Source: Celeribacter litoreus
GTDB lineage: Bacteria > Pseudomonadota > Alphaproteobacteria > Rhodobacterales > Rhodobacteraceae
DNA: 64,000 nucleotides
Direction: 5' to 3'
Assembly: GCF_020165855.1 (NCBI RefSeq)
Contig: NZ_JAIUFY010000005.1
Coordinates: 984,087 to 1,048,086, forward strand
Part shown: positions 10,529-52,375 of the stretch, piece by piece
How the letters are laid out: each line of letters opens with the position of its first letter
Position numbering within the stretch: the stretch's first letter is position 1
The notes under the pieces: model-generated
The model's database searches: none
What the model was told of the DNA's origin: nothing
Seen by the model: the letters and a program-made list of their open reading frames with translations, nothing else
Translations under genes and position numbers: made by a program

Positions 10529-10542
10529 GGGAGGATCGCACC

Positions 10543-10731
10543 ATGAAAAAACTCATCGCACTCTCCATGCTGATGGCAACCCCTGCGCTGGCCCATGAGG
10601 GTCACGCAGAACTCGCTGGCAGTCACGGGCATCAGGCCGCGCATTTCGCGATGGCGGCCATTGCGGCCGCTGTGGTCTGGCTCGTGGTTGAGACGGTCAA
10701 AGGTAGGGCCGCGCGCACCAAGGGGGAATGA
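10543..10731 (+). CDS. Small His-rich single-helix protein between hupL and hupC
   Basis: 62-residue protein with a clear Sec signal-like start (MKKLIALSMLMATPALA), followed by a short segment with five histidines (HEGHAELAGSHGHQAAH), one membrane helix (about 37-52) and a basic tail. It begins 14 bases after hupL behind GGGAGG, and ends three bases before hupC, so it is almost certainly translated with the structural genes. It resembles small uncharacterised Rhodobacterales proteins that I recall under a DUF label (DUF6732), but this is from memory. It is not part of the hupSLC order I know from R. capsulatus. A metal-related or HupC-assembly role is only a guess from its position and histidines. 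Confidence 0.75.
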   Translation: MKKLIALSMLMATPALAHEGHAELAGSHGHQAAHFAMAAIAAAVVWLVVETVKGRAARTKGE

Positions 10732-10734
10732 CGG

Positions 10735-37900: not shown

Positions 37901-38022
37901 GGCGGCGCGATCTGCGGATACTGTGCGACGGGGAGGGAGAAGATCGACAACAGGCCGATCCCCATGATCAAGATGGAAATCACCCACGCAAAGACCGGGC
38001 GATCAATAAAAAAGCGAGCCAT
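34915..38022 (-). CDS. RND efflux transporter, HAE1 family
   Basis: Proton-driven inner-membrane drug/hydrophobe exporter of the AcrB/MexB type, 1035 residues. It shows the internal duplication, with twelve membrane helices and two large periplasmic loops (about 30-340 and 560-870). The proton-relay Asp pair is in LLVDDAIVVVENVERIM near 405-409, with the conserved GxSPREAT region behind it. The C terminus is basic (KLTGKKKRTA). The adaptor gene lies 21 bases upstream in the same transcript. No outer-membrane TolC-type gene is in the window, so the channel must come from elsewhere. The substrate cannot be deduced. Confidence 0.94.
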   Translation of the reverse strand: MARFFIDRPVFAWVISILIMGIGLLSIFSLPVAQYPQIAPPSISVRATYPGASAETVANTVTQIIEQQMTGLDGMRYMSSSSTSAGSASITLTFETGTDPDIAQVQVQNKLSQATALLPDAVQRQGVTVQKSSAGFLMVIGVISEDGSMDQSDLADYLNTNLVDAFSRIEGVGGTQVFGAKYAMRVWLDPSKLAAFDMTPSDIVSAISGYNAQISAGSFGSMPSPDGQAFTATITAQSLLQTPDDFRNIILRSEQDGGLVLLDDVARVEIGAENYMTISQYNGQPASGMAIQLAPGANALDTSHRVREMVEDYAEYFPEGMSYVIPYDTTPFIEISIHEVQKTLMEAIVLVFFVMLLFLQNLRATLIPTLAVPVVILGTFAILALFGFTINVLTMLAMVLAIGLLVDDAIVVVENVERIMEEEGLSPREATRKSMDQITGALVGIALVLSAVFIPMAFFGGSTGVIYRQFSITIVSAMMLSVLVALTLTPALCATILRGKDAHHTHRGPFGWFNTAFDKLSGGYGGTVGYIIRRPLRMLMVYALMGGGIAWLFMQTPTGFLPDEDQGIMMALVQGPSGSTSENTLKANTQIKDYFLSAESENVEAVFSIVGFSFSGAGQNNGLAFIRMKDWEERPDPSQSVQAVAGRAFPAMMGIQEAMAFPIVPPAVIELGNVSGFDFYLQAQAGQSHEQLLEARNMLLGMAGQSDLIASVRPSGLEDATQFKLDIDWRAAGAMGIDPGVVGNTLSIAMAGTYVNDFNDNGRTKRVYVQGDPDSRATPSDLQKWRVRNNAGELVPFSNFTSERWVYGPQGLTRYNGTPSMQIQGSPAPGVSTGEAMAEIERLVSQIPGGFSVAWTGLSLEERESGSQAPMLYMLSLAAIFFCLAALYESWAIPFSVMLAMPVGILGTLFTAWHFGFQNGVFFQVGLLTVIGLTGKNAILIVEFAREQVEAGVDMFEAVLTAAKQRFRPIVMTSMAFSLGVVPLVLSSGAGAGGRQAVGAAVLGGTITGTVLGILFVPLFYVVVTKLTGKKKRTA

Positions 38023-38043
38023 TCAAAGGGATCCTTTTGCCGG

Positions 38044-39201
38044 TCAGTTGTTGTCTGCGGTGGGTTGTGCGGCCGCGCCTTGTTCTTGCGGCACGACCGT
38101 TGCACCCGGTGCGGTTTTCTGGAGGCCTGCAACGATGACACGATCACCGGCGGCGAGACCATCGGTGACGACCCAGTTAGCGCCTTGATCGCTCACCACC
38201 TCGAGGACGCGCTGTTCAACGACGTTCTCTGCGTTGACGACGAGCGCCATCGGACGACCGCGGCGGTCGCGGCTGACGGCTTCTTGAGGGACGAGGATCG
38301 CGTCAGACACGACGCCTTGCGGCATCTCGACCTGAACGTACATGCCTGGCAGCAGGAAGTTGTCAGGGTTCGGGAAGGAGAGACGCAACAGGATCGTGCC
38401 GGTGTCCTCGTTCACATAGGGTTCAGCGGCGGAAAGTTCGCCTTTGTGATCGTAGGCGATGCCGTCGGCGAGTGTGAGAGACACAGTTTGTCCGAGGTCG
38501 TCGGCGAATTCCTGGCCACTGCCGAGACGGCGCCAACGCAGCATTTCAGACGCGGATTGAGTGACGTCCACATAAATCGGATCAAGCGCACGGATGGTGG
38601 TGAGGGCGCTCGCCTGTCCTGCGGTGACGAGTGCACCCTGGCTGATGTCGCTGAGGCCAACCACGCCAGAAATCGGCGCACGGATTTCGGTGCGTTCCAG
38701 ATCGATTTCAGCGGCGAGGAGGTTCGCCTCGGCAACTTTCACCGCGGCTGCGGCGGAGTCGCGTTCTGCAATCGCCGTGTCGAGGTTCTGCTGAGCGACG
38801 ACGTTGCGGGATTTGAGTTCCTGCTGGCGCTCGTATTCAATTTCAGCCGACTTCAGCGCAGCTTTGGCTTGGGCGAGGCTGGCCTCTGCCACGGCTTTCG
38901 CGGCCTGATAGGTCGCCGCGTCGATTTGGTAGAGGGGATCCCCCTCATTCACCGCGCTGCCTTCTTCGAACTGGCGCGTCTGGATGATGCCGCCGACCTG
39001 CGGGCGCACTTCTGCCTCGGACGAGGCGGCCACACGACCGGGGAGCGGGCTGCTCAGCGTCACGTCTTGCGCAGAGAGCGTAACAACAGTCACAGGCATC
39101 GCGGGCGGGCCGCTTTGGGCAAAAACAGGTTGGGCAAGTGCGAGAGACAGTGCGAGCACTGCTCCAGAGCCGAATGTCAGGGAAGGGCGAAGGTGTGTCA
39201 T
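38044..39201 (-). CDS. RND periplasmic adaptor (AcrA/MexA family)
   Basis: Membrane-fusion protein joining the RND pump to an outer-membrane channel; 385 residues from the ATG at 39201. It has a Sec signal peptide (about 1-28, ending VFAQ) with no lipobox Cys, so unlike AcrA it should not be lipidated. Next come the barrel-sandwich/lipoyl halves (SEAEVRPQVGGIIQTRQFEEG near 55-75 and ERTEIRAPISGVVGLSDI near 150), an intervening coiled-coil hairpin rich in Ala/Glu, then beta-barrel and membrane-proximal domains. The tail is Gln/Ala-rich. It is divergent from a TetR gene. Confidence 0.93.
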   Translation of the reverse strand: MTHLRPSLTFGSGAVLALSLALAQPVFAQSGPPAMPVTVVTLSAQDVTLSSPLPGRVAASSEAEVRPQVGGIIQTRQFEEGSAVNEGDPLYQIDAATYQAAKAVAEASLAQAKAALKSAEIEYERQQELKSRNVVAQQNLDTAIAERDSAAAAVKVAEANLLAAEIDLERTEIRAPISGVVGLSDISQGALVTAGQASALTTIRALDPIYVDVTQSASEMLRWRRLGSGQEFADDLGQTVSLTLADGIAYDHKGELSAAEPYVNEDTGTILLRLSFPNPDNFLLPGMYVQVEMPQGVVSDAILVPQEAVSRDRRGRPMALVVNAENVVEQRVLEVVSDQGANWVVTDGLAAGDRVIVAGLQKTAPGATVVPQEQGAAAQPTADNN

Positions 39202-39269
39202 AGGTAACTCCGGCAGAACATGCCCGCGATCTAGTGCGGGGGAGGGAAAAATCGCCCTCAAAATGACGC

Positions 39270-39317
39270 GTTCCGGTTTTGTGCGTTGGAACTGGGCTTG
39301 ATTTTCGATTATTGAAA
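39270..39317. promoter_or_regulatory. Divergent RND/TetR control region with candidate operators
   Basis: The gap between the adaptor and the TetR gene holds two inverted repeats: GTTCC-N13-GGAAC at 39270-39292 and TTTC-N7-GAAA at 39303-39317. TetR repressors often bind such sites between themselves and the pump they control. Neither is a close copy of the AcrR site. Confidence 0.35.
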
Positions 39318-39379
39318 CCCGATGGTTTTGTAAAGCGCGGTGAGTGTGCTCTGATGATCAAGGGGGTGTGGGTAGCTGC

Positions 39380-40075
39380 ATGTGTGCAAAAAAAATGCAG
39401 GTTGAGCGATGTAGTGTGTTCGGTGTCGCCGAACGCAAGCGCGGACGTCCGGTCCAGATGGACGGTGAGGTCCGCGAAGGTCTGATCCTCGATGCGACAC
39501 AGGCGTTGATGACGGAGCAGGGCTTTGATCAGATCACTATGGCATCGATTGCGCGGCGTGCGGGGATGTCGAAGCGGACCGTTTATGAACATTTCGACAG
39601 TCAGGAAGAACTTCTTGGCCGCGTTATCGCGCGGGTCGGGGAAAGTATTTTTGAACCACTTCCGGCTGAAATGCGTGATGCGCACATCTCAGAACGTCTT
39701 GATCGGCTGTTGACGATCAACAAGCCCCCGGGAACGGACGCTCACAAACGCGAATTCCTGCGCACTTTGATTGCGCGGGCCCAGACTTACCCGACCTTGT
39801 GCCTTGAGTTGCTAAGGAACGGGCGCGACCGTCTCAACCGGTATGTATGTCAGGAATTGGAGCGCGAGATTGAAATGGGACGCCTCACTTTGACGTCTGC
39901 TCAATGCGCGCTGGCGGCAGATCTTCTGGTTAATATGGCCTTCGATGATCCGCTCAGAAAGTTGATCGAACCCGATTTTGTTGAGCCGTCGTCCGAACAG
40001 GAAGCCGAACGCCGTGCTCTCGCCATCCGCTTGTTCCTTGATGGCTGTGCCGTGAAAATGGGCGCGCGTGCCTGA
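39380..40075 (+). CDS. TetR-family regulator, likely repressor of the RND pump
   Basis: About 231 residues from the ATG at 39380; the exact start is uncertain because GTG 39344 and ATG 39395 are also in frame. The helix-turn-helix is clear (ITMASIARRAGMSKRTVYEHFDSQEELL), preceded by an RKRGRP-type basic arm. The C-terminal ligand domain is of the TetR_C type with no recognisable specificity. Divergence from the RND operon suggests that it represses the pump, and probably itself. Three in-frame Cys lie in the first 30 residues of the longest version. Confidence 0.85.
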   Translation: MCAKKMQVERCSVFGVAERKRGRPVQMDGEVREGLILDATQALMTEQGFDQITMASIARRAGMSKRTVYEHFDSQEELLGRVIARVGESIFEPLPAEMRDAHISERLDRLLTINKPPGTDAHKREFLRTLIARAQTYPTLCLELLRNGRDRLNRYVCQELEREIEMGRLTLTSAQCALAADLLVNMAFDDPLRKLIEPDFVEPSSEQEAERRALAIRLFLDGCAVKMGARA

Positions 40076-40178: not shown

Positions 40179-41561
40179 ATGTGCGCCTATTCCTGCACCC
40201 TTGGTGGCGAGAGATTTCAATTCCCGAACTTGGCAGATGTGATGGCGAAAGCGACGCCCGCGCGGTCTGGCGATGCACTGGCGGGATTGATCGCGGAAAG
40301 CGATGTGCAGCGGGTCGCGGCGCAGATGGTTCTCGCCGATTTGCCGCTCAAGGTGTTTCTTGAGGAGCTGTTGATCCCCTATGAGGAGGACGAGGTTGCA
40401 CGCCTGATCGTCGACAGCCATGACGCGGAGGCCTTCGCGCCCGTGTCGCACATGACAGTTGGACAGTTTCGCGACTGGCTCCTCTCGGATGCAGCGACGC
40501 CGACGGTGCTTAAGGCGCTCGCGCCCGGTCTCATGCCGGAAATGGCGGCTGCAGTCTCCAAACTGATGCGAAGCCGCGATCTCATTGCCGTGGCGCGCAA
40601 GATCACGGTCGTGACGGCGTTTCGCTCTACCCTCGGCCTTGAGGGCCGCATCGGCTCGCGGCTTCAGCCCAATCACCCCGCTGATGATCTGAAGGGCATC
40701 GTGGCCTCGACCCTCGACGGGTTGTCCTATGCGGTGGGCGATGCGGTGATCGGGATCAATCCGGCGACGGACAATATTCCGACGGCGATGACTCTATTGT
40801 CCATGCTCGACGATCTTCGGGCACGCTATGACATTCCGACGCAAAGCTGCGTGCTGACCCATGTCACCAACTCCATTGAGATCATAAATCGTGGCGCGCC
40901 GCTCGATCTCGTGTTCCAATCCGTGGCGGGGACGCAGGCCGCGAACGAGGGGTTCGGTGTCACGCTCTCGATGCTCAAAGAGGCGCATGAGGCGGCGCTG
41001 TCGCTCGGGCGCGGCACGGTTGGCACCAATGTGATGTATTTCGAAACGGGGCAGGGCAGCGCGCTCTCTGCTGACGCGCATCATGGGATCGATCAGCAAA
41101 CTTTGGAAGCGCGCGCCTATGCGGTCTGCCGCGCCTATGATCCGCTGATCGTCAATACCGTGGTCGGCTTTATCGGGCCGGAATACCTCTACGACGGCAA
41201 GGAGATCATCCGCGCGGGGCTCGAAGACGTGTTCTGCGGCAAGCTTCTCGGCCTGCCGATGGGGTGTGACGTCTGTTACACGAACCACGCAGAAGCCGAT
41301 CAGAACGACATGGATGTTCTGATGACGCTCCTCGCCAATGCCCGCGCGCAGTTCCTGATCGGCGTGCCGGGGGCAGATGACATCATGCTGAATTACCAGA
41401 GTCTCTCTTTCCACGACATCGCCTATCTGCGTAACTCTCTGGGCCTGAAGGCCGCGCCGGAGTTCGAGGCGTGGTTGACGTCCATGGGGCTGGTGAATGA
41501 GGCGGGCCACTTGCTCCCGAGCGGACAGGCCACCGAGAGACTTCTGGAGGCCGCACAATGA
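40179..41561 (+). CDS. eutB: Ethanolamine ammonia-lyase large subunit
   Basis: Adenosylcobalamin-dependent lyase subunit turning ethanolamine into acetaldehyde and ammonia; 460 residues. Family sequence covers the full length: LMAKATPARSGD-like start region, SKLMRSRDLIAVARKI, RLQPNHPADD near 165, DAVIGINPATDN near 190, and GTNVMYFETGQGSALSADAHHG near 290-310, where the substrate Glu lies, with MGCDVCYTNHAEADQND near 365. No microcompartment shell genes or EutA reactivase are present, so this is the free-enzyme type. The upstream 103 bases show no cobalamin riboswitch. It overlaps eutC by four bases. Confidence 0.95.
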   Translation: MCAYSCTLGGERFQFPNLADVMAKATPARSGDALAGLIAESDVQRVAAQMVLADLPLKVFLEELLIPYEEDEVARLIVDSHDAEAFAPVSHMTVGQFRDWLLSDAATPTVLKALAPGLMPEMAAAVSKLMRSRDLIAVARKITVVTAFRSTLGLEGRIGSRLQPNHPADDLKGIVASTLDGLSYAVGDAVIGINPATDNIPTAMTLLSMLDDLRARYDIPTQSCVLTHVTNSIEIINRGAPLDLVFQSVAGTQAANEGFGVTLSMLKEAHEAALSLGRGTVGTNVMYFETGQGSALSADAHHGIDQQTLEARAYAVCRAYDPLIVNTVVGFIGPEYLYDGKEIIRAGLEDVFCGKLLGLPMGCDVCYTNHAEADQNDMDVLMTLLANARAQFLIGVPGADDIMLNYQSLSFHDIAYLRNSLGLKAAPEFEAWLTSMGLVNEAGHLLPSGQATERLLEAAQ

Positions 41562-42319
41562 GCGATGTGGTGAAAGACAAATGGGCGGCCCTGCGTCAGG
41601 CGACGCCTGCGCGGATTGCGCTCGGGCGCACGGGGGCGGGGCTTCCGACCGGTGCGAACCTCGAATTCCAGTTTGCCCATGCCCGTGCCCGTGATGCGGT
41701 GCACTCCGCGCTGGATATGGATGCGCTTGAGGCGGAGTTGGCGCCGCTCGAAACCATCCGAGTAGCCTCTGCTGCGCCCGACCGCGCGAACTATCTGCGG
41801 CGTCCGGATTTGGGGCGCAAACTGGCGGCGGGCGAGGCGGATAAACTCAACGCGCGGCCCCTGTGTGATGTGGCCTTCGTCATTGCGGACGGGTTGTCCT
41901 CCGCGGCTGTGCAGGCCCATGCGGCCTCGGTTGTTCATGCGGCCCGCGCAAAACTTGAAGGACTGTCCTTCGGTCCTGTCGTGGTTGCCTCACAAGCGCG
42001 GGTGGCCATCGGCGACGAAATCGGTGCAGCCCTCGGCGCACGGCTTGTCGTCCTTCTGGTCGGTGAGCGCCCTGGCCTGACGGTTGCTGATAGCCTCGGA
42101 GCCTACCTGACCTATGGCCCGAAAGCAGGTGTCAAAGACAGCCAGCGCAACTGCCTCTCCAACATCCACGGCAAGGGCGGCATGTCCTACGAACAGGCAG
42201 CGGAAAAAATCGCTTGGCTGACACGTACGGCGCTTGAGCGGGGGCTCACGGGCACCGGTCTCAAAGAGGAAAGCGGCACCCTCACGCAAGAAAACGCCCC
42301 GCACATCGGCGAGGCGTAA
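41558..42319 (+). CDS. eutC: Ethanolamine ammonia-lyase small subunit
   Basis: Cobalamin-binding partner of EutB, 253 residues. Conserved marks are LRQATPARIALGRTGAGLPT near the N terminus, FVIADGLSSAAVQAHA near 110, GDEIGAALGARLVVLLVGERPGLTVADSLGAYLTYGP region at 150-190, and SQRNCLSNIHGKGGMSYEQA near 195-210. It begins in an ATGA overlap with eutB, which favours the 1:1 complex. It converges with the aminotransferase gene, with only 31 bases between, and no clear terminator there. Confidence 0.95.
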   Translation: MSDVVKDKWAALRQATPARIALGRTGAGLPTGANLEFQFAHARARDAVHSALDMDALEAELAPLETIRVASAAPDRANYLRRPDLGRKLAAGEADKLNARPLCDVAFVIADGLSSAAVQAHAASVVHAARAKLEGLSFGPVVVASQARVAIGDEIGAALGARLVVLLVGERPGLTVADSLGAYLTYGPKAGVKDSQRNCLSNIHGKGGMSYEQAAEKIAWLTRTALERGLTGTGLKEESGTLTQENAPHIGEA

Positions 42320-42350: not shown

Positions 42351-43724
42351 TTACATCGTCGCCGCGACGGTCGTGAGCGCGTTGTCGACCGCATTCAGGA
42401 TGCGATCAATGTCGTCTGCGGTGGAGATCAGCGCAGGCGAGAAGCACAGTGTGTTGTTGAATCCCGGCACAGAACGGTTGGTCGCGCCGATAATGACGCC
42501 CTGCTTGTCGCATTCCGCGACGACAGCGCCAACGAGTTTCTCGGAGAGCGGCTCTTTCGTCGCGCGATCCACAACGAGTTCAGCGCCACAGAAGAGGCCC
42601 TTGCCACGCGTGTCTCCGATGAGCGGGTGCTTGTCCATCAGAGCATCGAGGCCCGCCATCAGGCGATCGCCCATGACTTTGGTGTTGGCGAGGAGGTTTT
42701 CCTCTTCGATGATTTTCATGTTCTCGATTGCCGCCGCCGGACCGGCCGTGCAGCCGCCGAAAGTCGAGATGTCGCGGAAGTAGTTCATCGGGTCTTCCGG
42801 CGTGTCAGAGAACATGGAGAACACTTCGTCCGTGGTGATCATGCAAGCGATGGCGGCATAGCCGGAGGCGACGCCTTTCGCGGTGGTGATGAAGTCGGGC
42901 TTGATGCCATAGTTCTGATAGCCGAACCATTCACCCGTGCGGCCCATGCCACAGACGACTTCGTCGATGTGGAGGAGCACGTCATACTTTTTGCAGATCT
43001 CCTGCACCTTTTCCCAGTAGCCCTGCGGCGGAACGATCACGCCACCGCCAGCGGTTACGGGCTCAAGGCAAAGTGCGCCGACCGTCTCGGGGCCTTCGCG
43101 GAGAATGACCTCTTCGATGGCTTCTGCAGCGCGTTCGCCGTAGTTCTCGACATCCCACTGGGCGCGGTAGTCGAGGCAGTGGGGAACTTCGATGAAGTCA
43201 GGGGCAAACGGACCGTACTGTTGGGCGCGCTGTTGCTGGCCGCATGCGGACAGGGTGCCGATGGTTGTGCCGTGGTAATCGCGGTCGCGGAACAGGATTT
43301 TGGTCTTCTTGCCGCCATAGCGTTTGTGCGCGATCTGACGGACCATTTTGAAAGCCTTTTCATTGGCTTCCGAACCAGAGTTACAGTAGTAAACGCGGCT
43401 CAGGCCGGGGGTTTTTTCGGTCAGCATTTCAGAGAATTGCGCGCCCGGTATGGAGCCAGCGGAGCCAGCAAAGTAGTTCATCTTGATGAGCTGGTCGCGC
43501 ACGGCATTGGCGATGCGCTCGCGGCCGTAGCCGACGTTCACGGTCCAGACGCCGCCGGACACAGCGTCGAGGAACTCACGCCCGTTCTGATCCCAGACAG
43601 ACATGCCTTTGCCCTCCACGATGATACGCGGGTCGCGGGTTTCCAGCGCCTTGTGCTGGAACATGTGGTGCCAGACGTGGGCGCGGTCGGCCTCTACGAT
43701 GGCTGAGAGATCATTGTCGTGCAT
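42351..43724 (-). CDS. Class III pyruvate aminotransferase, taurine/hypotaurine type
   Basis: PLP omega-aminotransferase of 457 residues. The N-terminal half (VWHHMFQHKALETRDPRIIVEGKGM, read in two parts, then LDAVSGGVWTVNVGYGRERIANAVRDQL) resembles taurine--pyruvate aminotransferase (Tpa) as I recall it. The PLP lysine lies in TTAKGVASGYAAI near 280, with the Asp of LLHIDEVVCGMGRTG near 240. Tpa makes sulfoacetaldehyde; the related Hpa acts on hypotaurine. No xsc gene follows, so sulfoacetaldehyde acetyltransferase is not encoded here. It is divergent from an aldehyde dehydrogenase, with paired repeats between them. A putrescine-type substrate cannot be excluded. Confidence 0.8.
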   Translation of the reverse strand: MHDNDLSAIVEADRAHVWHHMFQHKALETRDPRIIVEGKGMSVWDQNGREFLDAVSGGVWTVNVGYGRERIANAVRDQLIKMNYFAGSAGSIPGAQFSEMLTEKTPGLSRVYYCNSGSEANEKAFKMVRQIAHKRYGGKKTKILFRDRDYHGTTIGTLSACGQQQRAQQYGPFAPDFIEVPHCLDYRAQWDVENYGERAAEAIEEVILREGPETVGALCLEPVTAGGGVIVPPQGYWEKVQEICKKYDVLLHIDEVVCGMGRTGEWFGYQNYGIKPDFITTAKGVASGYAAIACMITTDEVFSMFSDTPEDPMNYFRDISTFGGCTAGPAAAIENMKIIEEENLLANTKVMGDRLMAGLDALMDKHPLIGDTRGKGLFCGAELVVDRATKEPLSEKLVGAVVAECDKQGVIIGATNRSVPGFNNTLCFSPALISTADDIDRILNAVDNALTTVAATM

Positions 43725-43777
43725 GGAGTTCTCCGTAGTTCAGTTCCATGAGCAAATCATACCGCTCATAGACGGGT

Positions 43778-43859
43778 CTAGAGCCAGCGAATGACATTTA
43801 TCGGTCCAGCGCAAGAGGTCGAATATACTGGACTCATTGTTTTGAATCTCTGGCACCTA
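43778..43859. promoter_or_regulatory. Divergent TauR/MocR-type operators
   Basis: On the plus strand CTGGACTCAT (43828-43837) is followed by CTGGCACCTA (43850-43859). On the minus strand CTGGACCGAT (43809-43800) is followed by CTGGCTCTAG (43787-43778). Both pairs are direct repeats with 22 bases start to start, facing away from each other. They resemble the CTGGACYTAA direct repeats reported for TauR of R. capsulatus. On the minus strand a TATGAT -10 box sits 17 bases beyond a poor -35 that overlaps the inner repeat, as expected for an activated promoter. Confidence 0.75.
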
Positions 43860-43892
43860 TTCGGCTGACAGGTTTCGGGCAATGCAAGGGAT

Positions 43893-45383
43893 ATGACCCA
43901 GATTGCTTCCACCTTCCCCGACTCGCAGGCCGTAACTGCGGCTTACCGCAACCTTAACCTCGTGGGGGGCAAACGTGTGCCTGTTTCTACGGGGCTAGAC
44001 GTTTTGAACCCTGCGACAGGCGCGGTTCTTGGTCAGGCGGCCGCGTCGGGGGCCGAGGAAACGGGTGCCGCTGTCGCGGCGGCGAAAGAGGCCTTTCCGG
44101 CTTGGGGTGCGACACCGGCGCGGGAGCGGGGCAAGGCCGTAGCCGCGGCGGGACGTGCGCTTCTGGAGAACTTCGAACTTGTCGCGCAAGTGCTCGCACG
44201 CGAGACGGGCAAAGCGATCCGCACGGAATGCCGTGGAGAGGTCAAGACAGCCGCAGATATCCTTGAATTCTATGGCGGTTTGGGATCGGAACTCAAAGGC
44301 GAGACCATCCCGTTCAGCCCGAATATGCTCACCATGACGACGCGGGAGCCGCTCGGTGTTGTGGGGGCGATCGTGCCGTGGAACGTGCCGCTCGTGCTCA
44401 TGATGCTCAAGATTGCACCAGCACTCGTGGCGGGCAATACGGTGGTGGTCAAAGCGTCGGAGGAAGCCCCGTTCGCGACCTATCTCGCCGCCGAGATTGT
44501 GATGGAATTTCTCCCCGCTGGCGTGCTCAACGTCATCAACGGCAACGGCCCCGATTGTGGCGCGGCGCTGACCGCGCATCCGGACGTGGCGAAGATCACC
44601 TTCACCGGTTCCGAAGCTGTCGGTGAAACGGTCTACAAAGCCGCCGCTGAGCGCATTGTGCCAGTCTCTTTGGAGCTTGGCGGTAAAAGCCCGATGATCG
44701 TCTGCGACGATGCCAATCTGGACAAAGCTGTGGCTGGTGCCATCTCCGGCATGCGTTTCACCCGCCAGGGACAGAGCTGCACGGCGTCCTCGCGGATTTA
44801 CGTGCATGAAAGCCTCTATGAGCCGTTTCTCAAGGCGCTAACGGATGCCCTGAACGCGCTCAAAATTGGCGATCCGCTCGATGAGGAAACCGACATAGGC
44901 ACCATCATCAACGCCAAACAAGCGGCCGTGGTTGACGACTACGTCGCGCAGGCGGAGGCTGCTAAGGGCGCGACTGTGATCCGCTGCGGTCAGATGCCGG
45001 AGGGGACGACGCTTTCACTTGATCTCTTCGCTTTGCCGACGCTCTTGCTCGACCTGCCGGAAGATCACCCCTGCGTTCAGAACGAGATTTTCGGGCCGGT
45101 GGCCGTTGTTCAGAAGTGGTCCGACTATGAGGACGTGATCGCAAAGGCGAACGACAGTCGCTATGGCCTGGCCGCGACGGTGTGGACGGAAACGCTCTCG
45201 ACTGCTCTCGATGCGACGTCTCGGTTAAACGCGGGCTATGTGCAGGTGAACCAGAACCTGACGATCCAGCCGAACGTGTCCTATGGCGGGTTCGGTCGCT
45301 CCGGTCTCGGGAAAGAAGCCTCGCTCGAAGCCATGCTCGCGCATTTCACGCGCTCCAAGACCATCGTCATCGCGATGGACTAA
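43893..45383 (+). CDS. Aldehyde dehydrogenase of the amine-catabolism block
   Basis: NAD(P)-dependent aldehyde dehydrogenase, 496 residues. Catalytic Cys lies in RQGQSCTASSRIYV near 292, the general base Glu in SLELGGKSPMIV near 258, the cofactor loop in FTGSEAVGETVYKAAAE near 235, and the structural Asn in VPWNVPLVLMMLK near 163. Divergence from the aminotransferase and shared operators make it the likely next enzyme. It would be a sulfoacetaldehyde dehydrogenase (SafD-like) if the amine is taurine. It would be an acetaldehyde dehydrogenase if the amine is hypotaurine, whose product loses sulfite to give acetaldehyde. It could also serve acetaldehyde made by EutBC. Confidence 0.85.
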   Translation: MTQIASTFPDSQAVTAAYRNLNLVGGKRVPVSTGLDVLNPATGAVLGQAAASGAEETGAAVAAAKEAFPAWGATPARERGKAVAAAGRALLENFELVAQVLARETGKAIRTECRGEVKTAADILEFYGGLGSELKGETIPFSPNMLTMTTREPLGVVGAIVPWNVPLVLMMLKIAPALVAGNTVVVKASEEAPFATYLAAEIVMEFLPAGVLNVINGNGPDCGAALTAHPDVAKITFTGSEAVGETVYKAAAERIVPVSLELGGKSPMIVCDDANLDKAVAGAISGMRFTRQGQSCTASSRIYVHESLYEPFLKALTDALNALKIGDPLDEETDIGTIINAKQAAVVDDYVAQAEAAKGATVIRCGQMPEGTTLSLDLFALPTLLLDLPEDHPCVQNEIFGPVAVVQKWSDYEDVIAKANDSRYGLAATVWTETLSTALDATSRLNAGYVQVNQNLTIQPNVSYGGFGRSGLGKEASLEAMLAHFTRSKTIVIAMD

Positions 45384-45392
45384 TCTCACGCG

Positions 45393-46862
45393 TCATCTGG
45401 CGCGGTTGATAGCCTCTGACAGTCGGGCGATCCCGGTCGGGATTTTCGAGACATCAATCGCGCCAAACCCCATCCGGAGCCTGTTTTGGGGTGGATTTTC
45501 ACGCATGTAATGCACCGTGCCGGCCTCGATCACGACACCGAGTTCGAGGGCGGCTTTCTGGACGGACGGGGCATCTACCCCCTCAGGTAGTGCGAGCCAG
45601 ATGCCTGACCCGCCCGTCGTCATCGTCACGGAGCACTCGGGAAGCTGGCGGTCGATTTCACGCAGCATCACACGCCATTTCTCCGCCATTCCACGTCTGT
45701 GCCGCCGGATATGGGCGTCGTAGTGACCTTCTGACAGAAAGAGCGCCATCGCGCGTTGCGCAAGCGCGGAGGGGTGACGATACATCAGACGGCGCAAATC
45801 CCGCAGTTCCGCAATCACCTCCCGATCCGCCGCAATGAACCCGAGGCGAATGCCGGGGAAGAGCGGTTTGGTGAGAGAGCCAACGTGGATCACGCGACCG
45901 GTGGCGTCGAGCGCCTTGAGCGTCGGGTGTTGGGCGCCGATAAAGTTGAGTTCGTGTTCGTAGTCGTCTTCGAGAATGAGAAAGTTCTGCTCATTCGCCG
46001 CCTCAATGAGCGCGAGACGTCGCTCCATCGGCATGGTGACATTGGTAGGGGACTGGTGTCCCGGGGTGACATAGACCATATCCGCGCCGTCGAGCTTTGA
46101 ACGGAAATTGAGCCCCTTGCTGTCCACAGGCGCAGGCCGGACCTCGCAGCCGTGCGAGAGAAAGATATTGCGGGCATCGACATAACCGGGGTCCTCGACA
46201 ACGATTGTTTTGGTGGTGTCGAGAAACAGGGTCGCGACCATCCAAATCGCATTTTGCGCACCGACGGTGATCAATAGCTCATCAGCTCCCGCACGGAACC
46301 CGCGCTGCGGGAGCACGCGGCGGGTAATCTGTTCCAAGAGAAGCGGATCGTCGCTGTCCGTCAAATCGTCAGCCCATGTGCCCACGTGCCGAGACGTGCC
46401 CGCGCGACGGAGACAGTCGCGCCAGCGCGCCACGGAAACGTCGTCCCGCGCGACCTGTCCGAAGATGAACGGATAGGGATAGCGGTGCCAGTCGTGCAGT
46501 TTCTCGATATTCACCTGTGCGGTGTAGCGCCGTGGGATGAACCGGCCGAAATCCGGTTTGGACGCCGATCCGGGCCGGTGACGCGGCGGCGCGACGTCGA
46601 GCTTTTCACGGACGAAATTCTCATCAATGAAATAGCCACGGCGCGGTTTCGCGGTGATGAACCCATCCTGATGCAACCGGTCGTAGACAATCGAAACCGT
46701 ATTGCGGGAGACATTGATTGTCTTGGCAAATTCTCGCGAGGAGGGCAGGGGATCGACAGGTGAAACCGCCCCGTCAAGAATGGCTTCGATCAAGCGTTCC
46801 TGAATCTGATGCTGCAAAGAGGCGCTGTCGTCAAACGGGGTCTCGAAATAGCGTTCCAGCAT
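45393..46862 (-). CDS. MocR/TauR-type GntR regulator with aminotransferase domain
   Basis: 489-residue MocR-family regulator. Residues 10-80 form a GntR winged helix (LPSSREFAKTINVSRNTVSIVYDRLHQDGF, seen in two parts). A linker follows, then a fold-type I aminotransferase-like domain (about 120-485) with a PLP-binding lysine in HVGSLTKPLFPGIRLGF near 325 and the tyrosine/aspartate region ILEDDYEHELNF. Family members such as TauR, GabR and PdxR sense an amine or its PLP adduct and bind direct repeats. Position between the dehydrogenase and the transporter, with CTGG repeats at both, points to TauR-like activation of this block. Confidence 0.85.
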   Translation of the reverse strand: MLERYFETPFDDSASLQHQIQERLIEAILDGAVSPVDPLPSSREFAKTINVSRNTVSIVYDRLHQDGFITAKPRRGYFIDENFVREKLDVAPPRHRPGSASKPDFGRFIPRRYTAQVNIEKLHDWHRYPYPFIFGQVARDDVSVARWRDCLRRAGTSRHVGTWADDLTDSDDPLLLEQITRRVLPQRGFRAGADELLITVGAQNAIWMVATLFLDTTKTIVVEDPGYVDARNIFLSHGCEVRPAPVDSKGLNFRSKLDGADMVYVTPGHQSPTNVTMPMERRLALIEAANEQNFLILEDDYEHELNFIGAQHPTLKALDATGRVIHVGSLTKPLFPGIRLGFIAADREVIAELRDLRRLMYRHPSALAQRAMALFLSEGHYDAHIRRHRRGMAEKWRVMLREIDRQLPECSVTMTTGGSGIWLALPEGVDAPSVQKAALELGVVIEAGTVHYMRENPPQNRLRMGFGAIDVSKIPTGIARLSEAINRAR

Positions 46863-46975
46863 GGGGCGACTCGTGCCTTTTCAACATGTTCATGTCCTGC
46901 CCCGATCACGTGCAAGGCGCGGCGACAGGTGCCACTCTATTGTGCATTTTTCCAAGTGGTCAGGGCAATCCCCTT

Positions 46976-47030
46976 CTGGACCTATAGTTTGGGGCCTCTG
47001 GCTCTAAATGGGCTCTTTTGCTGGCTCCTA
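46976..47030 (+). promoter_or_regulatory. Triple CTGG direct repeat before the ABC transporter operon
   Basis: CTGGACCTAT (46976-46985), CTGGCTCTAA (46998-47007) and CTGGCTCCTA (47021-47030) lie in the same direction with spacings of 22 and 23 bases. The first two match the order and spacing of the pairs at 43778-43859. They lie in the 269-base region shared by the MocR gene and the transporter operon. The first unit is the closest match to the published TauR repeat. Confidence 0.72.
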
Positions 47031-47131
47031 GGCTCATTCTCATACGCAGCGTGGACATCTTTGTCAGTCCGCGGGGGCCAGCGGCTTCGCGCGTAACGTA
47101 TTTTAAATATTAAAAATCACAGGGAGTGATT

Positions 47132-48265
47132 ATGACAAACCTCACCAAACCCACCGGTCTGAAACGCCGCTCGTTCCTCAAGGGCACCGCAACGGTGCTC
47201 GGCGGTCTGGCAGCACCGGCCATCGTGAGCAAACAGGCTCTCGCCTCCTCCGGCGAGATCAATGTGATGATGTGGTCCGACTATCTTCCGGAAAGCTTTG
47301 TCACCGCGTTTGAAGGCTCCACCGGCATCAAACTGAACTTTACCGGCATCGGCTCCAACGAAGAGATCATCAATAAACTCAAAGCCACCGGTGGCGAAGG
47401 GTTCGACATCATCTCCCCGACCGTGAACCGTAACCTCCTGTGGGCTGAACTGGGCCTTCTGCAGCCGTTCGACATGTCCAAGATCGCCATTGAAAAGGTG
47501 AACCCGGCGATGGCTCTGGGTGAGGCGCACTGGAACTTCGGCGGCACCTGCTGGGTCCCGCACATCTGGGGCACCGAAGGCGTTGCATGGCGCACCGACA
47601 TGTTCACCCCTGCGGGCGAGTTCCCGTCCTATTACGACATCTGGGACGACGCCAACGCCGGTAAAACCATGGGTCGCGGTCACTCCATGCTCTTGGGCCT
47701 CGGTCTCGGCATGGAACGTCTCGGCATGATGGAGCCGGGTTCCATGTGGGCGGCCTATGAGACACCGGAGAAAATGGATGAGGTCTGGAGCATGCTCGTT
47801 GAGCACGCGATCGAAAAGAAAGGCAACATCAAGCTGATCTGGAACGACGCGGACACCCAGAAAAACGGTCTCCTGAACGAAGGCGTCATCGTTGGCCAGA
47901 CTTGGGACGGCCCGCCGATCGCCCTGAAAAACGAAGGTGAGCCGGTCATGTACCGTGCGCCAGTCGAAGGCGCGATGGCGTGGGTCGACGGTATGGCGAT
48001 GCCGACCGGTGCCAAGAACATCGAACAGGCCTATGCCTTCATCGACGCTTGCTACAACCCCGAGTGGGCCGGTGAAGCGATCAAGACGCACGGCTACAAC
48101 TCGCCGGTTCTGGGCGCTGACACCTATGGTGGCGAGATCTACGCGAAAAACTTCGCAGACGCCTATCCGGGTGAGGCCCTCGCGAACCTCAACGCATGGC
48201 CGGCAGAGGCCCCGTGGTATTCGGAAAAACGTACCGAATTCACCAACAAGTTCCTCTCTGCCTAA
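47132..48265 (+). CDS. ABC transporter substrate-binding protein, PotD/PotF type, Tat signal
   Basis: 377-residue periplasmic binding protein. The start at ATG 47132 fits AGGGAG five bases before it; a GTG at 47126 is in frame but overlaps that site. The twin-arginine signal KRRSFLKGTA near 11-20 is followed by a hydrophobic segment ending near SKQALA. The mature part begins with INVMMWSDYLPESFV, typical of the spermidine/putrescine family, and contains FDIISPTVNRN and GTEGVAWRTDMF regions. Despite the family name, substrate is best judged from the regulon, where an amine such as taurine, hypotaurine or putrescine is likely. Confidence 0.88.
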   Translation: MTNLTKPTGLKRRSFLKGTATVLGGLAAPAIVSKQALASSGEINVMMWSDYLPESFVTAFEGSTGIKLNFTGIGSNEEIINKLKATGGEGFDIISPTVNRNLLWAELGLLQPFDMSKIAIEKVNPAMALGEAHWNFGGTCWVPHIWGTEGVAWRTDMFTPAGEFPSYYDIWDDANAGKTMGRGHSMLLGLGLGMERLGMMEPGSMWAAYETPEKMDEVWSMLVEHAIEKKGNIKLIWNDADTQKNGLLNEGVIVGQTWDGPPIALKNEGEPVMYRAPVEGAMAWVDGMAMPTGAKNIEQAYAFIDACYNPEWAGEAIKTHGYNSPVLGADTYGGEIYAKNFADAYPGEALANLNAWPAEAPWYSEKRTEFTNKFLSA

Positions 48266-48339: not shown

Positions 48340-49431
48340 ATGCCCGACAGATCCGTCCTCCTCGACCACATCACGATCCGCTTCGGCAATTTCACTGCCG
48401 TCGACAACGCAAATCTCAAAATTAATTCAGGCGAATTCTTTTCCTTCCTAGGGCCCTCCGGCTGCGGCAAGACGACCATGCTGCGCTGTATCTCGGGCTT
48501 CTCCGAGCCGACCGAGGGCAAGGTGCTCATCGGCGGCAAGGATATGGCCGGTGTCGGACCGAACAAACGTCCGACGGCACTGATCTTTCAACACCTCGCG
48601 TTGTTCCCGTTGATGACCGTGGCGGAGAACATTGCCTTCCCGCTGGAGGTCCGTGGTGTCTCCAAAAAAGAGCGTCGCAAGAAAGCGGATGAACTTCTTG
48701 AAATGATTGCGCTTCCGGGGATTGGTGACAAGAAGCCCGGCGAACTTTCGGGCGGTCAGAAACAGCGTGTGGCTATCGCCCGCGCACTCGCGGTGGAGCC
48801 GGATATCCTCTTGCTCGACGAACCGCTCTCCGCGCTCGATCTCAAACTGCGCCAGCATATGCGGACGGAACTTCGCGCCATTCAGAAACAGGTCGGCGTG
48901 ACCTTCATCTACATCACCCACGACCAAGGCGAGGCTCTGACCATGTCCGACCGTGTGGCCGTTATGAGCCGCGGTGTGATCGAACAGGTTGGCGAACCGG
49001 ACCGCATCTACAACCGTCCACGCTCTGCCTTTGTTGCGTCCTTCGTGGGGGAGAACAACGCCGTTGAGGGGATTATCAAAGGCCAGTCGGGGGAAACCGC
49101 AGCACTTGAGACCCCGATGGGCACGTTTGAAGCCCGCGTCGGCGGTGGCCGCAAATACAAGGCAGGGGACAAAGCGCTCCTGTTCGTTCGTCCCGAACAA
49201 CTCATTCCCGGCGAAAGCGCGAATGCATTCCAATCCGTGCTCTCGCGTCAGGAATTCGAGGGGGCGACGAACCATGTGTTTGCTAATACCGGCGATCAGG
49301 AACTTCGCATCTCCATGGTCAACGCCGGTCTCGCAGGCAGCTTGCCGGGGCAGGGCGAAACCCTCTCCCTCGGGTTCCGGCCCCTGAACGCCACCATCCT
49401 TCCCGTCGGTCACATGGCGAGTGAAGCATGA
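48340..49431 (+). CDS. ABC transporter ATPase, PotA type
   Basis: 363-residue ATPase energising the PotD-like system. Walker A GPSGCGKTTML lies near 45, the Q loop in IFQHLALFPLMTV near 90, signature LSGGQKQRVAIARAL near 140, Walker B ILLLDEPLSALD near 163, and the switch His in YITHDQGEA near 195. A C-terminal TOBE domain (about 245-355) is present, as in PotA. It starts 74 bases after the binding-protein gene, behind the hairpin, and its stop overlaps the next gene by four bases. Confidence 0.93.
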   Translation: MPDRSVLLDHITIRFGNFTAVDNANLKINSGEFFSFLGPSGCGKTTMLRCISGFSEPTEGKVLIGGKDMAGVGPNKRPTALIFQHLALFPLMTVAENIAFPLEVRGVSKKERRKKADELLEMIALPGIGDKKPGELSGGQKQRVAIARALAVEPDILLLDEPLSALDLKLRQHMRTELRAIQKQVGVTFIYITHDQGEALTMSDRVAVMSRGVIEQVGEPDRIYNRPRSAFVASFVGENNAVEGIIKGQSGETAALETPMGTFEARVGGGRKYKAGDKALLFVRPEQLIPGESANAFQSVLSRQEFEGATNHVFANTGDQELRISMVNAGLAGSLPGQGETLSLGFRPLNATILPVGHMASEA

Positions 49432-50351
49432 AACATCTGAAAGCCGCCTATACGACGCTCGCCGCGCGTCACGGCATGGGGGCCGCGCTGTTCGTGGCCA
49501 TTGCCGTCACGCTCTGGGTCGTCGTCTTTATCACCCTGCCGCAGCTGTCGATGCTCGACTATTCCTTCCGCTTCAACCTGCCGGTCGACCAACTCGGCAC
49601 CGATGCGGACCACTACACGCTTGAGCAATACCGCAGTTTCTTCTTCAACAACGATGGCTCGATCAATACGCTCGACATCACGATCCTCGTGCGCACCTTG
49701 GTTGCGGCGCTGATCGTCACGGCGATTGACGTGATCATCTGCTACCCCATCGCCTACATCCTCGCGCATGGGGCCAACGGCGTCGCTGCCCGCCTCATGG
49801 TGATTGGTCTGATCATTCCCTACTGGATCAACGAAATTTTGCGCGCTTTTGCGTTCCGTGTGCTTTTCGGTGCTACGGGCGTTGTGAACACATGGGGGAT
49901 GCAGCTCGGCCTTTGGGATGCGCCGATTGATTTCATCCGTGCCGATGTCGCGCTCTATTGCGGGTTGGCCTATGCCTATATCCTCCTGATGATCTTCCCG
50001 ATCTACAACGCGGTCGAAGCGCTCGATCATACGCAGGTCGAGGCCGCGCGCGATATGGGCGCACCGCTCTGGCGCGTGCACTGGCGTGTTGTCCTGCCGA
50101 TGGCCAAGCCGGGGATCGCGTCCGGTGCGACGATGGTCTTTATGCTCACCGCCGGTGCGCTGGCCGCGCCGCAGATTTTGGGCGGGCCGTCGTCCCTCTG
50201 GTTCACGCAAGTCATCTATCAGTGGTTCAATGAATCCTCGAACTGGCCGCGCGGCTCCGCCTATGCGGTCGTGCTTCTCGTGACCTGTATCTCCTTCGTC
50301 CTTCTGATGATGCGGGTGTTCAAGGTTTCTGTCGGGGAGATTGGCAAATGA
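49428..50351 (+). CDS. ABC transporter permease, PotB type
   Basis: 307-residue inner-membrane permease with six membrane helices (about 25-45, 95-118, 122-142, 175-195, 230-250 and 275-295). The cytoplasmic EAA loop reads EAARDMGAPLWRVHWRVVLPMAKPG near 205-228 and contacts the ATPase. The 70-residue periplasmic loop after helix one is slightly longer than in E. coli PotB. It is coupled on both sides by ATGA overlaps, so the four genes form one operon. Confidence 0.92.
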   Translation: MKHLKAAYTTLAARHGMGAALFVAIAVTLWVVVFITLPQLSMLDYSFRFNLPVDQLGTDADHYTLEQYRSFFFNNDGSINTLDITILVRTLVAALIVTAIDVIICYPIAYILAHGANGVAARLMVIGLIIPYWINEILRAFAFRVLFGATGVVNTWGMQLGLWDAPIDFIRADVALYCGLAYAYILLMIFPIYNAVEALDHTQVEAARDMGAPLWRVHWRVVLPMAKPGIASGATMVFMLTAGALAAPQILGGPSSLWFTQVIYQWFNESSNWPRGSAYAVVLLVTCISFVLLMMRVFKVSVGEIGK

Positions 50352-51538
50352 ACCGACACACGCTTTTCGGTGGCGCCTATGCCATCGCCTTTTTCTCCTT
50401 CCTGTTCGGCCCGCTGATCATCATGTCGATGACCGCGTTCAACTCCTCGCGCTTTCCGCGGGTGTCTCCGTGGGAGTGTTTTACGACGGGCTGGTTCAAC
50501 GAGTTGTTCGGCAATGCGCGCCTTATGGAGGGCTTGCTGAACTCCGTGATCATCGGTGTGGGCGTTGTGGCGCTCGCGGTGCCAATTGGTCTCGCCGGTG
50601 CGCTCGCGCTCTCTGAACTGCCGGCTAAGCTCCGCGCTGCGCTCTATACGGTTCTGATCCTGCCGATCCTGATCCCGGGCGTTGTGCTTGGTATTTCGAC
50701 CATCGTCCTTTGGGGCCAAATCTCTCGCGGGATGGGGGCGGGGTTCCTCTACAACGGTTACTTCCTCACCATCGTGGGTCAGATCACCTTTGTGTCGGCC
50801 TACGCGATGCTCGTCTTCATCGCGCGCTTGCAACGCTTTGACGCGACGCAGACCGAAGCCGCGCTCGACCTCGGCGCAACACCGGGGCAGGCGTTCCGCA
50901 AAATCCTGTTGCCGTTCATGGCGCCTGCGATTGGCTCTGCTGCGTTCATCACGCTGTTGGCGTCGTTCGAGAACTACAACACGACGGTGTTCACGGTTCT
51001 CTCGGAGAGCACATTCACCACCGCACTGGCCTCCAAAGTCCGCCACGGCACGGACCCCTCCCTGTCCGCGCTCGCGGTGATCATCATCACGATCACACTC
51101 GTGGGGGCCCTGACCAACGAGGCGCTGCAACGTCGCAAAGAGGCCGAGATGGGTGGGCGTGCCTCACGCTCTCCGCTCTATCTCAATCCGGTCACGCGGA
51201 CACTCACGCACCCGGGTGTGGTCCTTGCGATCCTTGTGGCGGTGATTGGCGGGATTTCCTACGCAGGGTCGCAACATGACAGCTCTGTCTGCGAAGCCGG
51301 TGTCCTGCAAGAAAAGCTCGACCGTCAGGAAGAACTCCGCGCGGCGCAACGGGCCAAGATCGAAGCGATGGAAGCCGAGCAGGAAAAGACCCTGCCGAAG
51401 TCCAACTCCGCCTTCGGTGGCGCGTTTGGCGGTCTCGGAACGCCTGCGCCCGCGCCCGAGCCAGCGCCCAAACCGGAAAGCCCGTCCGCCTTTGGCGGCG
51501 CCTTCGGGGGCATCACGGCCCCGAAAACCGACGAATAA
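50348..51538 (+). CDS. ABC transporter permease, PotC type, with C-terminal extension
   Basis: 396-residue permease. Residues 1-262 are an ordinary PotC-like permease with six helices and the EAA loop EAALDLGATPGQAFRKILLPF near 170-190. About 130 extra residues follow. They hold a seventh membrane helix (about 289-306), a charged helical segment with coiled-coil character (316-348, Glu/Gln/Arg/Lys-rich), and a low-complexity tail with SAFGGAFGG at 354-362 and again at 380-388, joined by a Pro/Ala/Glu linker. PotC proteins usually end near residue 265. The extension ends at a single stop and keeps the local codon style, so it does not look like a frameshift. Its role is unknown. Confidence 0.9.
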   Translation: MNRHTLFGGAYAIAFFSFLFGPLIIMSMTAFNSSRFPRVSPWECFTTGWFNELFGNARLMEGLLNSVIIGVGVVALAVPIGLAGALALSELPAKLRAALYTVLILPILIPGVVLGISTIVLWGQISRGMGAGFLYNGYFLTIVGQITFVSAYAMLVFIARLQRFDATQTEAALDLGATPGQAFRKILLPFMAPAIGSAAFITLLASFENYNTTVFTVLSESTFTTALASKVRHGTDPSLSALAVIIITITLVGALTNEALQRRKEAEMGGRASRSPLYLNPVTRTLTHPGVVLAILVAVIGGISYAGSQHDSSVCEAGVLQEKLDRQEELRAAQRAKIEAMEAEQEKTLPKSNSAFGGAFGGLGTPAPAPEPAPKPESPSAFGGAFGGITAPKTDE

Positions 51539-51586: not shown

Positions 51587-52375
51587 TTAGTCCGGAATGG
51601 TCCGCGCGTAGCCGTCCGTTGGCAGGTCCCGCAACTCTTTGAGCATCTCGATAAAGCCCGCAACCTGATGTTCGCAGGTGGCGACGCCTTTCTCGGCGGT
51701 GGCCAGATGCGCTTCGCCGACGGTGCCTTTCGGGTTCAGGTCTTTGGAGACCCACGCGAGGTTCACCGGACCAATCGGAGAAATCGGCGCGGTCTCGGCG
51801 GTGGAGCGGAAGTCCTCGGCCATCTCCATATCCACCAGATGCGGTTTGAAGTGGAGCATCAGCGAGGTCTCGAGGTCACCACCGTGGATGCCGTAGCTGT
51901 TCTCTTGCGCGCTATACATGCCCTCCGGCTTGCCGAAGTTGCCCCACTGGCATTTGACGACCATCATGCCTGCCTGCACGCGCAGCTCGCGGCCCAGAAT
52001 GGAAATCAGATCGAGGTTCCCGCCGTGGGAGTTGACAATCACCATCTTCTTGAGACCGGCGCGCGCGACAGACAGACCGATCTCCGTCCACGCGTCGAGC
52101 GCGGTTTTGGCCGTGTAGGTCAGCGTGCCCTTGGCGTGGATGTGTTCGTTCGACTTGCCGACCGCCTGAACGGGCAGGATCAGGATGTCGACATCGTCGG
52201 GGCAGGTTGCGCGAAGTTGTGCGAGCATGCCTTCGTTGATGTAGGTATCGACGCCAACCGGCAGGTGCGGACCGTGCTGCTCTATGGCGGCCGTGGGCAG
52301 GATGACGATGGTTTTCTCGGGGTCGAAGTCGGCGAATTCCGTCGTGCGGTATTCGGCCCAATCGAAACGTCTCAT
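51587..52375 (-). CDS. Creatininase-family amidohydrolase
   Basis: 262-residue member of the creatininase family (creatinine amidohydrolase, also the FAPy and mycofactocin MftE hydrolases). The two-metal site is visible: Glu and His in AAIEQHGPHLPVGVD near 28-42, with Asp42, His in NSHGGN near 117, and Glu in HGGDLETSLML near 168. Family members open cyclic amides or cleave formamide bonds. It is the last gene of the nine-gene minus-strand operon, with its start overlapping the oxygenase stop. Given the operon partners, a ring-opened nitrogen heterocycle is a more likely substrate than creatinine itself, but this is inference. Confidence 0.85.
   Translation of the reverse strand: MRRFDWAEYRTTEFADFDPEKTIVILPTAAIEQHGPHLPVGVDTYINEGMLAQLRATCPDDVDILILPVQAVGKSNEHIHAKGTLTYTAKTALDAWTEIGLSVARAGLKKMVIVNSHGGNLDLISILGRELRVQAGMMVVKCQWGNFGKPEGMYSAQENSYGIHGGDLETSLMLHFKPHLVDMEMAEDFRSTAETAPISPIGPVNLAWVSKDLNPKGTVGEAHLATAEKGVATCEHQVAGFIEMLKELRDLPTDGYARTIPD

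Follow-up and report, generated by a model that had tools for sequence, protein, structure and literature searches.

Genes and direct repeats at the locus

The window, by which we mean the whole 64-kb stretch of DNA analysed, carries on its minus strand a gene for a class III aminotransferase of the Tpa family (42351..43724, Pfam Aminotran_3) and, divergent from it on the plus strand, a gene for an aldehyde dehydrogenase (43893..45383, Pfam Aldedh), non-acylating by family. The gene at 45393..46862 (minus strand) encodes a protein over the cut-offs of Pfam GntR (PF00392) and Aminotran_1_2 (PF00155). An N-terminal GntR winged helix joined to a C-terminal fold-type-I aminotransferase-like domain places it in the MocR subfamily of regulators, and it is the putative binder of the three operators described below. 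A solute-binding protein of a Pot-like ABC importer is encoded on the plus strand at 47132..48265 (SBP_bac_8; ATG at 47132, in-frame GTG at 47126), with the operon 48340..51538 for the importer ATPase (48340-49431) and two permeases (49428-50351 and 50348-51538) on the same strand. The eutB and eutC genes of ethanolamine ammonia-lyase (40179..42319, plus strand) lie beside the aminotransferase gene. Near them, at 34915-40075, are genes that presumably resemble those of an RND efflux pump, and a typed TetR-family regulator is divergent from these RND-like genes. A creatininase-family gene (51587-52375) follows the importer operon on the opposite strand; it is found in all nine Celeribacter loci (incomplete in L039-L041) and was not seen in the available stretches of other genera. 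No RNA family reached the Rfam gathering score in the window.

Between the aminotransferase and aldehyde dehydrogenase genes are two pairs of CTGG direct repeats. The AT-side operator, which faces the aminotransferase, occupies 43778..43809 of the minus strand, with box 1 at 43800-43809 (CTGGACCGAT) and box 2 at 43778-43787 (CTGGCTCTAG). The ALDH-side operator, facing the aldehyde dehydrogenase, occupies 43828..43859 of the plus strand, with box 1 at 43828-43837 (CTGGACTCAT) and box 2 at 43850-43859 (CTGGCACCTA). Spacing within both pairs was read from the sequence as 22; the positions that the sequence-only reading had given (43828/43850 on the plus strand, 43809/43787 on the minus strand) and its spacing were all confirmed. 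That reading had also proposed one form for the first half-sites and another for the second, and the consensus of the two boxes does differ: the half-sites are non-identical and share one orientation at a spacing of 22 bp, box 1 approximating CTGGMNYNAT and box 2 being mostly STGGCTCTAA, with CTGGCTCTAA the most frequent second half-site across loci. What it overlooked is a stronger third copy on the plus strand at 46976..47007 (CTGGACCTATAGTTTGGGGCCTCTGGCTCTAA), upstream of the MocR gene and facing the ABC-importer operon, which is the main conserved operator.

The exact pattern CTGGAC-NN-AT-N12-CTGGC had 3 matches in the 64-kb window vs. 0 in 100 dinucleotide-preserving shuffles. In the whole genome (3.66 Mb) it again matched three times, always within 3.2 kb around the MocR gene, and its reversed control gave no match in the same 3.66 Mb. 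With a second genome pattern two of the three sites were recovered, with 0 controls and no place outside the cluster. A third one, allowing up to two mismatches, recovered all three sites and none outside the cluster, and it adds little because its reversed control also matched twice. When the window was scored with a profile made from 15 non-Celeribacter sites, the three operators took ranks 1 to 3 (third operator 31.9, AT-side 25.1, ALDH-side 16.0), and the fourth-ranked place scored 13.0. The maxima of 100 simulated Markov-1 windows, used as the null, had a mean of 8.6 (sd 2.6) and a largest value of 19.5. As the ALDH-side score is lower than this best simulated maximum, the profile by itself does not single this site out, and the case for it is made by its conservation and the exact pattern.

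Conservation and promoter geometry of the operators

Twenty loci with relatives of the window's MocR were taken from the GTDB contig set by six peptide patterns, as a sample and not as a census; nine are from Celeribacter and the others from Labrenzia/Roseibium/Stappia, Agrobacterium, Martelella, Jiella and one MAG. To these were added L005, from the same family as the window, and L060, a Paroceanicella plasmid. The importer adjoins the MocR gene in 19 of the 20 fetched loci, and in 22/23 when L005, L060 and the window are counted; the exception, L050, was left out of the importer-promoter counts as it is without an importer orthologue there. The loci come from related species, so these counts are not independent events; regulator identities among the operator loci nevertheless fall to about 48%, and conservation of the MocR-adjacent site spans four named families. 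A scan of related genomes, proposed by the sequence-only reading, thus found direct-repeat operators conserved beside MocR orthologues, and the CTGG repeats are real sites, conserved in evolution beyond chance.

As to the importer side, TGG-N19-TGG, that is, the 22-bp spacing, is present in 22/22 importer promoters beside a MocR orthologue (window included), and any other TGG spacing from 12 to 44 occurs in at most 4/22. The most frequent form of this site is CTGGCNCCATAGTTT-N7-STGGCTCTAA. A TAnnnT element starts 20 nt (9 loci) or 21 nt (13 loci) after box 2, making 22/22 importer promoters, and is absent at the other offsets from 0 to 39. At the third operator of the window this -10-like element is TAGGCT (47029..47034, plus strand), which follows box 2 by 21 nt. 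If the spacer has the usual 17 bp, a -35 hexamer would run into the last bases of box 2, an arrangement typical of an activator in contact with RNA polymerase. Activation at the importer promoter is supported by this geometry, from which we infer an activator contact at -35; it is at this promoter only that a direction of control appears supported. MocR probably controls its own gene too, since the importer operator lies shortly before that gene. A further CTGG at 47021, 23 bp past importer box 2, is not conserved in other loci and was set aside as chance. Within window positions 46862-46976, between the MocR start and the operator, there is a core CCA[CT]TCTATTG[TA]GCA that is kept in 10/10 genus loci (window included). 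This conserved stretch is possibly the MocR promoter.

For the region between the aminotransferase and aldehyde dehydrogenase genes, nine genus loci were counted, the window among them and L034 excluded as these genes are outside its stretch; all nine were aligned for conservation, and six sites on each side were listed for the -10 geometry. The ALDH-side pair is kept in 9/9 loci, with GTGG as the core of box 1 in L052. On the AT side, CTGG cores at 22-bp spacing are found in 6/9 and are degenerate in L036, L037 and L038. Mean pairwise identity amounts to 0.85 and 0.79 for the ALDH-side boxes, 0.67 and 0.67 for those of the AT side, and 0.49 for the remainder; when a 22-spaced 10+10-mer was tried at 136 placements between the two genes, conservation was highest at the ALDH-side pair. 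Spacing within an intact pair is always 22. In contrast, the start-to-start distance between the pairs varies among the six loci having both: it is 19 in four of them, and 43 and 54 in L035 and L052. Variable distance and a degenerate minus pair together point to separate operators with no conserved mirror unit, and the mirror-image arrangement described earlier is thus present in this genome without being a conserved unit across the genus loci.

A -10 at the importer distance was absent from the listed sites on both sides (AT-side 0/6, ALDH-side 0/6), box 2 of the ALDH-side pair ends 32-33 nt before the ATG, and a promoter search of the window returned no sigma-70 promoter at 43700-43920. The suggestion that one regulator switches on both divergent genes keeps one part, an operator facing each gene, and loses the other: with no -10 at an importer-type distance, activation is not supported there.

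The MocR regulator and its relation to TauR

We compared 23 orthologues of the window's MocR, of which that of L053 is frame-broken. The residues which, by role, we take to form the MocR PLP site (Lys, Asp, Tyr, Asn and Arg) are K332 (22/23), D299 (23/23), Y301 (23/23), N274 (21/23) and R339 (22/23); the role of N274 is unsure, because Asn is found in only 10/28 TauR-type rows. Against the NCBIfam PdxR model the regulator scored 319.9 with a cut-off of 320, and it was far below the other NCBIfam models. In the tree, the 23 members form a clade apart from 28 TauR-type relatives, each with 100/100 support; the latter are 38-42% identical to the window's MocR, and other MocR-like matches in the genome are partial and at most 31% identical. 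The tree also points to Celeribacter as the genus of the window. The TauR-type label follows from Xsc neighbouring the two loci typed by profile, and among further TauR-type stretches the order aminotransferase-tauR-xsc is seen in 11/20. A sister relationship to TauR was not supported, the branching order of the three MocR clades having a support of 18.

Two residues of the DNA-binding domain separate the groups. Residue 54 of the recognition helix is N in 23/23 window-type and I in 27/28 TauR-type sequences, and residue 75 of the wing is R in 23/23 and S in 28/28, respectively. These differences would be in line with the changed second box: in the window sites, box 1 agrees with the TauR repeat CTGGACYTAA over its first six bases and box 2 departs from it. 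Upstream of the 28 TauR-type loci, 22-bp CTGG repeats were present in 13, absent from 13 and spurious in 2, and inspection by eye revealed no fixed -10 in 11 of the TauR-type sites.

In the available part of PMC5320631, MocR boxes are said to recur after one or more turns of the helix and frequently to contain a TGG group, which agrees with the 22-bp spacing found here in 22/22 importer promoters. According to the same part of PMC5320631, TauR of Rhodobacter capsulatus and other Rhodobacterales (Wiethaus 2008, via PMC5320631) is likewise a MocR protein with direct CTGG repeats and a Tpa-type aminotransferase as target, and the content of TauR regulons varies. As far as that text goes, TauR differs in having CTGGACYTAA as box 2 vs. 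STGGCTCTAA here, Xsc as partner vs. aldehyde dehydrogenase here, and TauABC/TauMLK as transporters vs. the Pot-like importer. TauR2, known to us by its description in the same portion of PMC5320631, shares with the window a TauR-like motif and a COG1012 aldehyde dehydrogenase in the regulon, whereas its regulons hold tauE, oppABCDF and TRAP transporters and not the importer or aminotransferase of the window. Similarly, OapR/GabR are MocR proteins said there (PMC5320631, in the part available) to control an omega-aminotransferase and a semialdehyde dehydrogenase, as the window's would; their motifs include inverted boxes, whereas the window has two direct boxes only. No account of this MocR group was found in the available part of PMC5320631 or in article titles and abstract openings, and it may be among the unnamed groups of PMC5320631/RegPrecise.

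Enzymes at related loci, the candidate substrate and the proposed regulon

Relatives of the aminotransferase at E <= 1e-150 were obtained from 301/390 Rhodobacterales genomes and, outside the genus, are 72-79% identical among the matches listed; identity to the relatives in the 11 aminotransferase-tauR-xsc stretches (of 20 fetched) is 73-78%. The enzyme can be assigned to the Tpa (taurine:pyruvate aminotransferase) family. The aldehyde dehydrogenase-linked aminotransferases (Celeribacter, L131, L132 and L144) form one group (96/92), which includes one row of other context. In L131, L132 and L144, relatives of the aldehyde dehydrogenase (70-73% identical) are found near a Tpa-type aminotransferase and a different MocR, and no CTGG-type 22-bp direct repeats were detected around these aminotransferase-aldehyde dehydrogenase clusters; the same enzyme pair near a third MocR clade without CTGG repeats is a regulator exchange. 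Among the 20 genus genomes, 13 have the window's MocR at >=73% identity, once with an in-frame stop (G589:C4:1445098-1446560).

Outside Celeribacter, an AptA-type omega-aminotransferase about 28% identical to that of the window is encoded near MocR in 10 loci. Of five that were typed, four exceed the NCBIfam cut-off for AptA. The other one, L053, is broken: MocR and aptA of this Jiella pelagia locus (6001-7450 and 9956-11256) match piecewise in different frames. An SDR gene is divergent to aptA in 9/10 loci. The operator precedes aptA in 10/10 loci having this gene (L043 included), and in 7/9 listed aptA sites (L043 not listed) TA stands at offset 20 after box 2 without a full TAnnnT. The Celeribacter layout, with an operator for each of two divergent genes, recurs in Jiella (L050, L053), where the genes have only a distant relationship, or none, to those of Celeribacter. 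A copper amine oxidase gene follows MocR in Paroceanicella (L060) and G263, with no operator found before it in L060, and neither enzyme is present in the available stretch of L048.

The solute-binding protein has PotD/PotF as relatives among solved structures. We take D168, E171 and Y85 of PotD to be polyamine-contact positions; the residues aligned to them are H, L/M/I and N in 22/22 sequences, and D257, W255, W34 and Y37 are kept. With these three positions replaced, import of a di- or polyamine looks less likely, PotD-like as the binding protein is. A predicted structure of the binding protein was discarded (mean pLDDT 41). Importer neighbourhoods were inspected in 17-kb stretches for 26 of 40 full-length places outside the genus with >=63% identity; genes for glutamine-synthetase-like (GS-like) protein, aldehyde dehydrogenase and iron-ADH are beside the Pot-like importer in 4/26 of these (L093, L097, L116 and L117). 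Importer orthologues L066-L090 and L092-L115 (62-69% identical) have no window-type MocR relative within their 17-kb stretches. Many of them carry CTGGMCYTAW-N12-CTGTCACTKT, a 22-spaced repeat whose first box resembles that of TauR and whose second box differs, about 100-125 nt upstream of the importer (187 in L100). It was counted in 16/27 of one set (plus a match in L065 that is not upstream) and in 15/26 of another, the two sets overlapping.

The clues on the substrate point several ways, and ethanolamine would be its main rival identity. AptA and SDR in other genera suggest beta-alanine-like substrates; taken together, the genes suggest a 2-aminoethyl compound, H2N-CH2-CH2-X. Paracoccus denitrificans reportedly (in 2013 work attributed to Felux et al.) transaminates hypotaurine to sulfinoacetaldehyde, which decays to acetaldehyde. 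Hypotaurine degradation there is said to need a Tpa-type aminotransferase and an aldehyde dehydrogenase, and no Xsc. Hypotaurine appears to fit best because the product acetaldehyde suits an ordinary aldehyde dehydrogenase; that pathway is like the window in pairing a transaminase with oxidation of acetaldehyde to acetate.

We consider it probable that the locus is a MocR regulon with three operators, serving the importer, the Tpa-type aminotransferase and the aldehyde dehydrogenase, for a 2-aminoethyl compound, hypotaurine being the first candidate. The adjacent MocR most likely binds all three operators. Several observations count against this reading: the AT-side pair is degenerate in a third of the genus loci (3/9), the intergenic sites have no -10 at the fixed distance (0/6 and 0/6) with ALDH-side box 2 only 32-33 nt from the ATG, the ALDH-side profile score is exceeded by the best one among 100 simulated windows, and the loose genome pattern gave two reversed-control matches. 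In addition, 13/28 TauR-type loci are without a 22-spaced pair, two more having spurious ones, and the aldehyde dehydrogenase-linked aminotransferases of three other genera are near a different MocR clade without boxes. That the repeats are due to chance or belong to an unrelated regulator is barely credible: only the weak, third-rank ALDH-side profile score and the control matches of the loose pattern speak for it, against conservation beside MocR in four named families, which already refutes chance, and the exact genome-wide count. A single composite mirror operator of four half-sites, made for looping or for a repressing tetramer, would agree with the start-to-start distance, which is 19 bp in 4 of the 6 loci where both pairs exist, and with intergenic sites lacking importer-type promoter geometry. 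We regard it as quite improbable, since L035 and L052 have distances of 43 and 54, 3/9 loci show a degenerate minus pair next to a preserved plus pair, and the importer carries a single pair.

The sequence-only reading had likened the repeats to those of TauR, and TauR operators in an ordinary taurine regulon would explain the Tpa-type aminotransferase as well as the CTGG core with 22-bp spacing; this spacing, common to 13/28 TauR-type loci, is the part of the likeness that stands. Against it, the regulator belongs to a separate 100/100 clade, the second box differs, no other full-length MocR at the TauR level (38-42%) is encoded in the genome, and Xsc over the family cut-off was found in none of the 20 genus genomes, the window's included (weaker matches reach up to 280 of 676 bits). 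An ordinary taurine regulon is therefore highly improbable, and the system is judged to resemble TauR, yet not to be TauR. A rather unlikely alternative, though the least so of these, leaves the operators and the regulator as they are and makes ethanolamine the sensed substrate. Adjacency of eutBC and the aminotransferase gene in the window and the 8 Celeribacter loci having the aminotransferase would fit it, as would the binding protein, which in 22/22 is without acidic residues at two PotD polyamine-contact positions, and the GS-like, aldehyde dehydrogenase and ADH genes beside importer orthologues in 4/26 loci. One of the four, L093, has the order DctM-DctP-GS-ALDH-ADH of the Phaeobacter ethanolamine cluster, as given in the available part of PMC10132767. 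Yet the 260 nt preceding eutB contain a 22-spaced TGG pair in 0/8 loci (window included; L035 was excluded because eutB is incomplete there), and eutBC were accordingly rejected as regulon members; the aminotransferase is of the Tpa type, and no GS-like gene is present in the 17-kb stretches of the other 22/26 importer loci. The importer of the Phaeobacter cluster, which acts by gamma-glutamylation, is moreover a TRAP system in the part of PMC10132767 available, unlike the Pot-like importer here. No paper joining ethanolamine and Celeribacter was found in the literature searched.

In the three-operator MocR regulon, a head-to-tail MocR dimer would contact the two boxes from the same side of the helix, 22 bp being about two helical turns. 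Its PLP-containing aminotransferase-like domain would sense the primary amine, and RNA polymerase would be recruited from box 2, which would abut or overlap the importer -35 region. The imported amine would then be transaminated to an aldehyde and the aldehyde oxidised. More doubtfully, the comparison of genera hints at an unnamed MocR clade with a heterotypic direct-repeat operator, in which the order of the half-sites may set the direction of activation and box 2 may replace the -35. Such a clade would sense a 2-aminoethyl compound and keep a constant Pot-like importer (22/23 loci), its deaminating module being exchanged between Tpa-type aminotransferase with aldehyde dehydrogenase, AptA with SDR and possibly copper amine oxidase, the first two with operator copies of their own.

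The regulon gives a concrete operator, regulator and three promoters for a MocR group of which the texts, titles and abstract openings examined gave no account. The half-site change, paired with two DNA-binding residues that differ from TauR, offers a testable specificity switch. The regulon also hints at how Rhodobacterales without Xsc may process amines of the hypotaurine or ethanolamine type.
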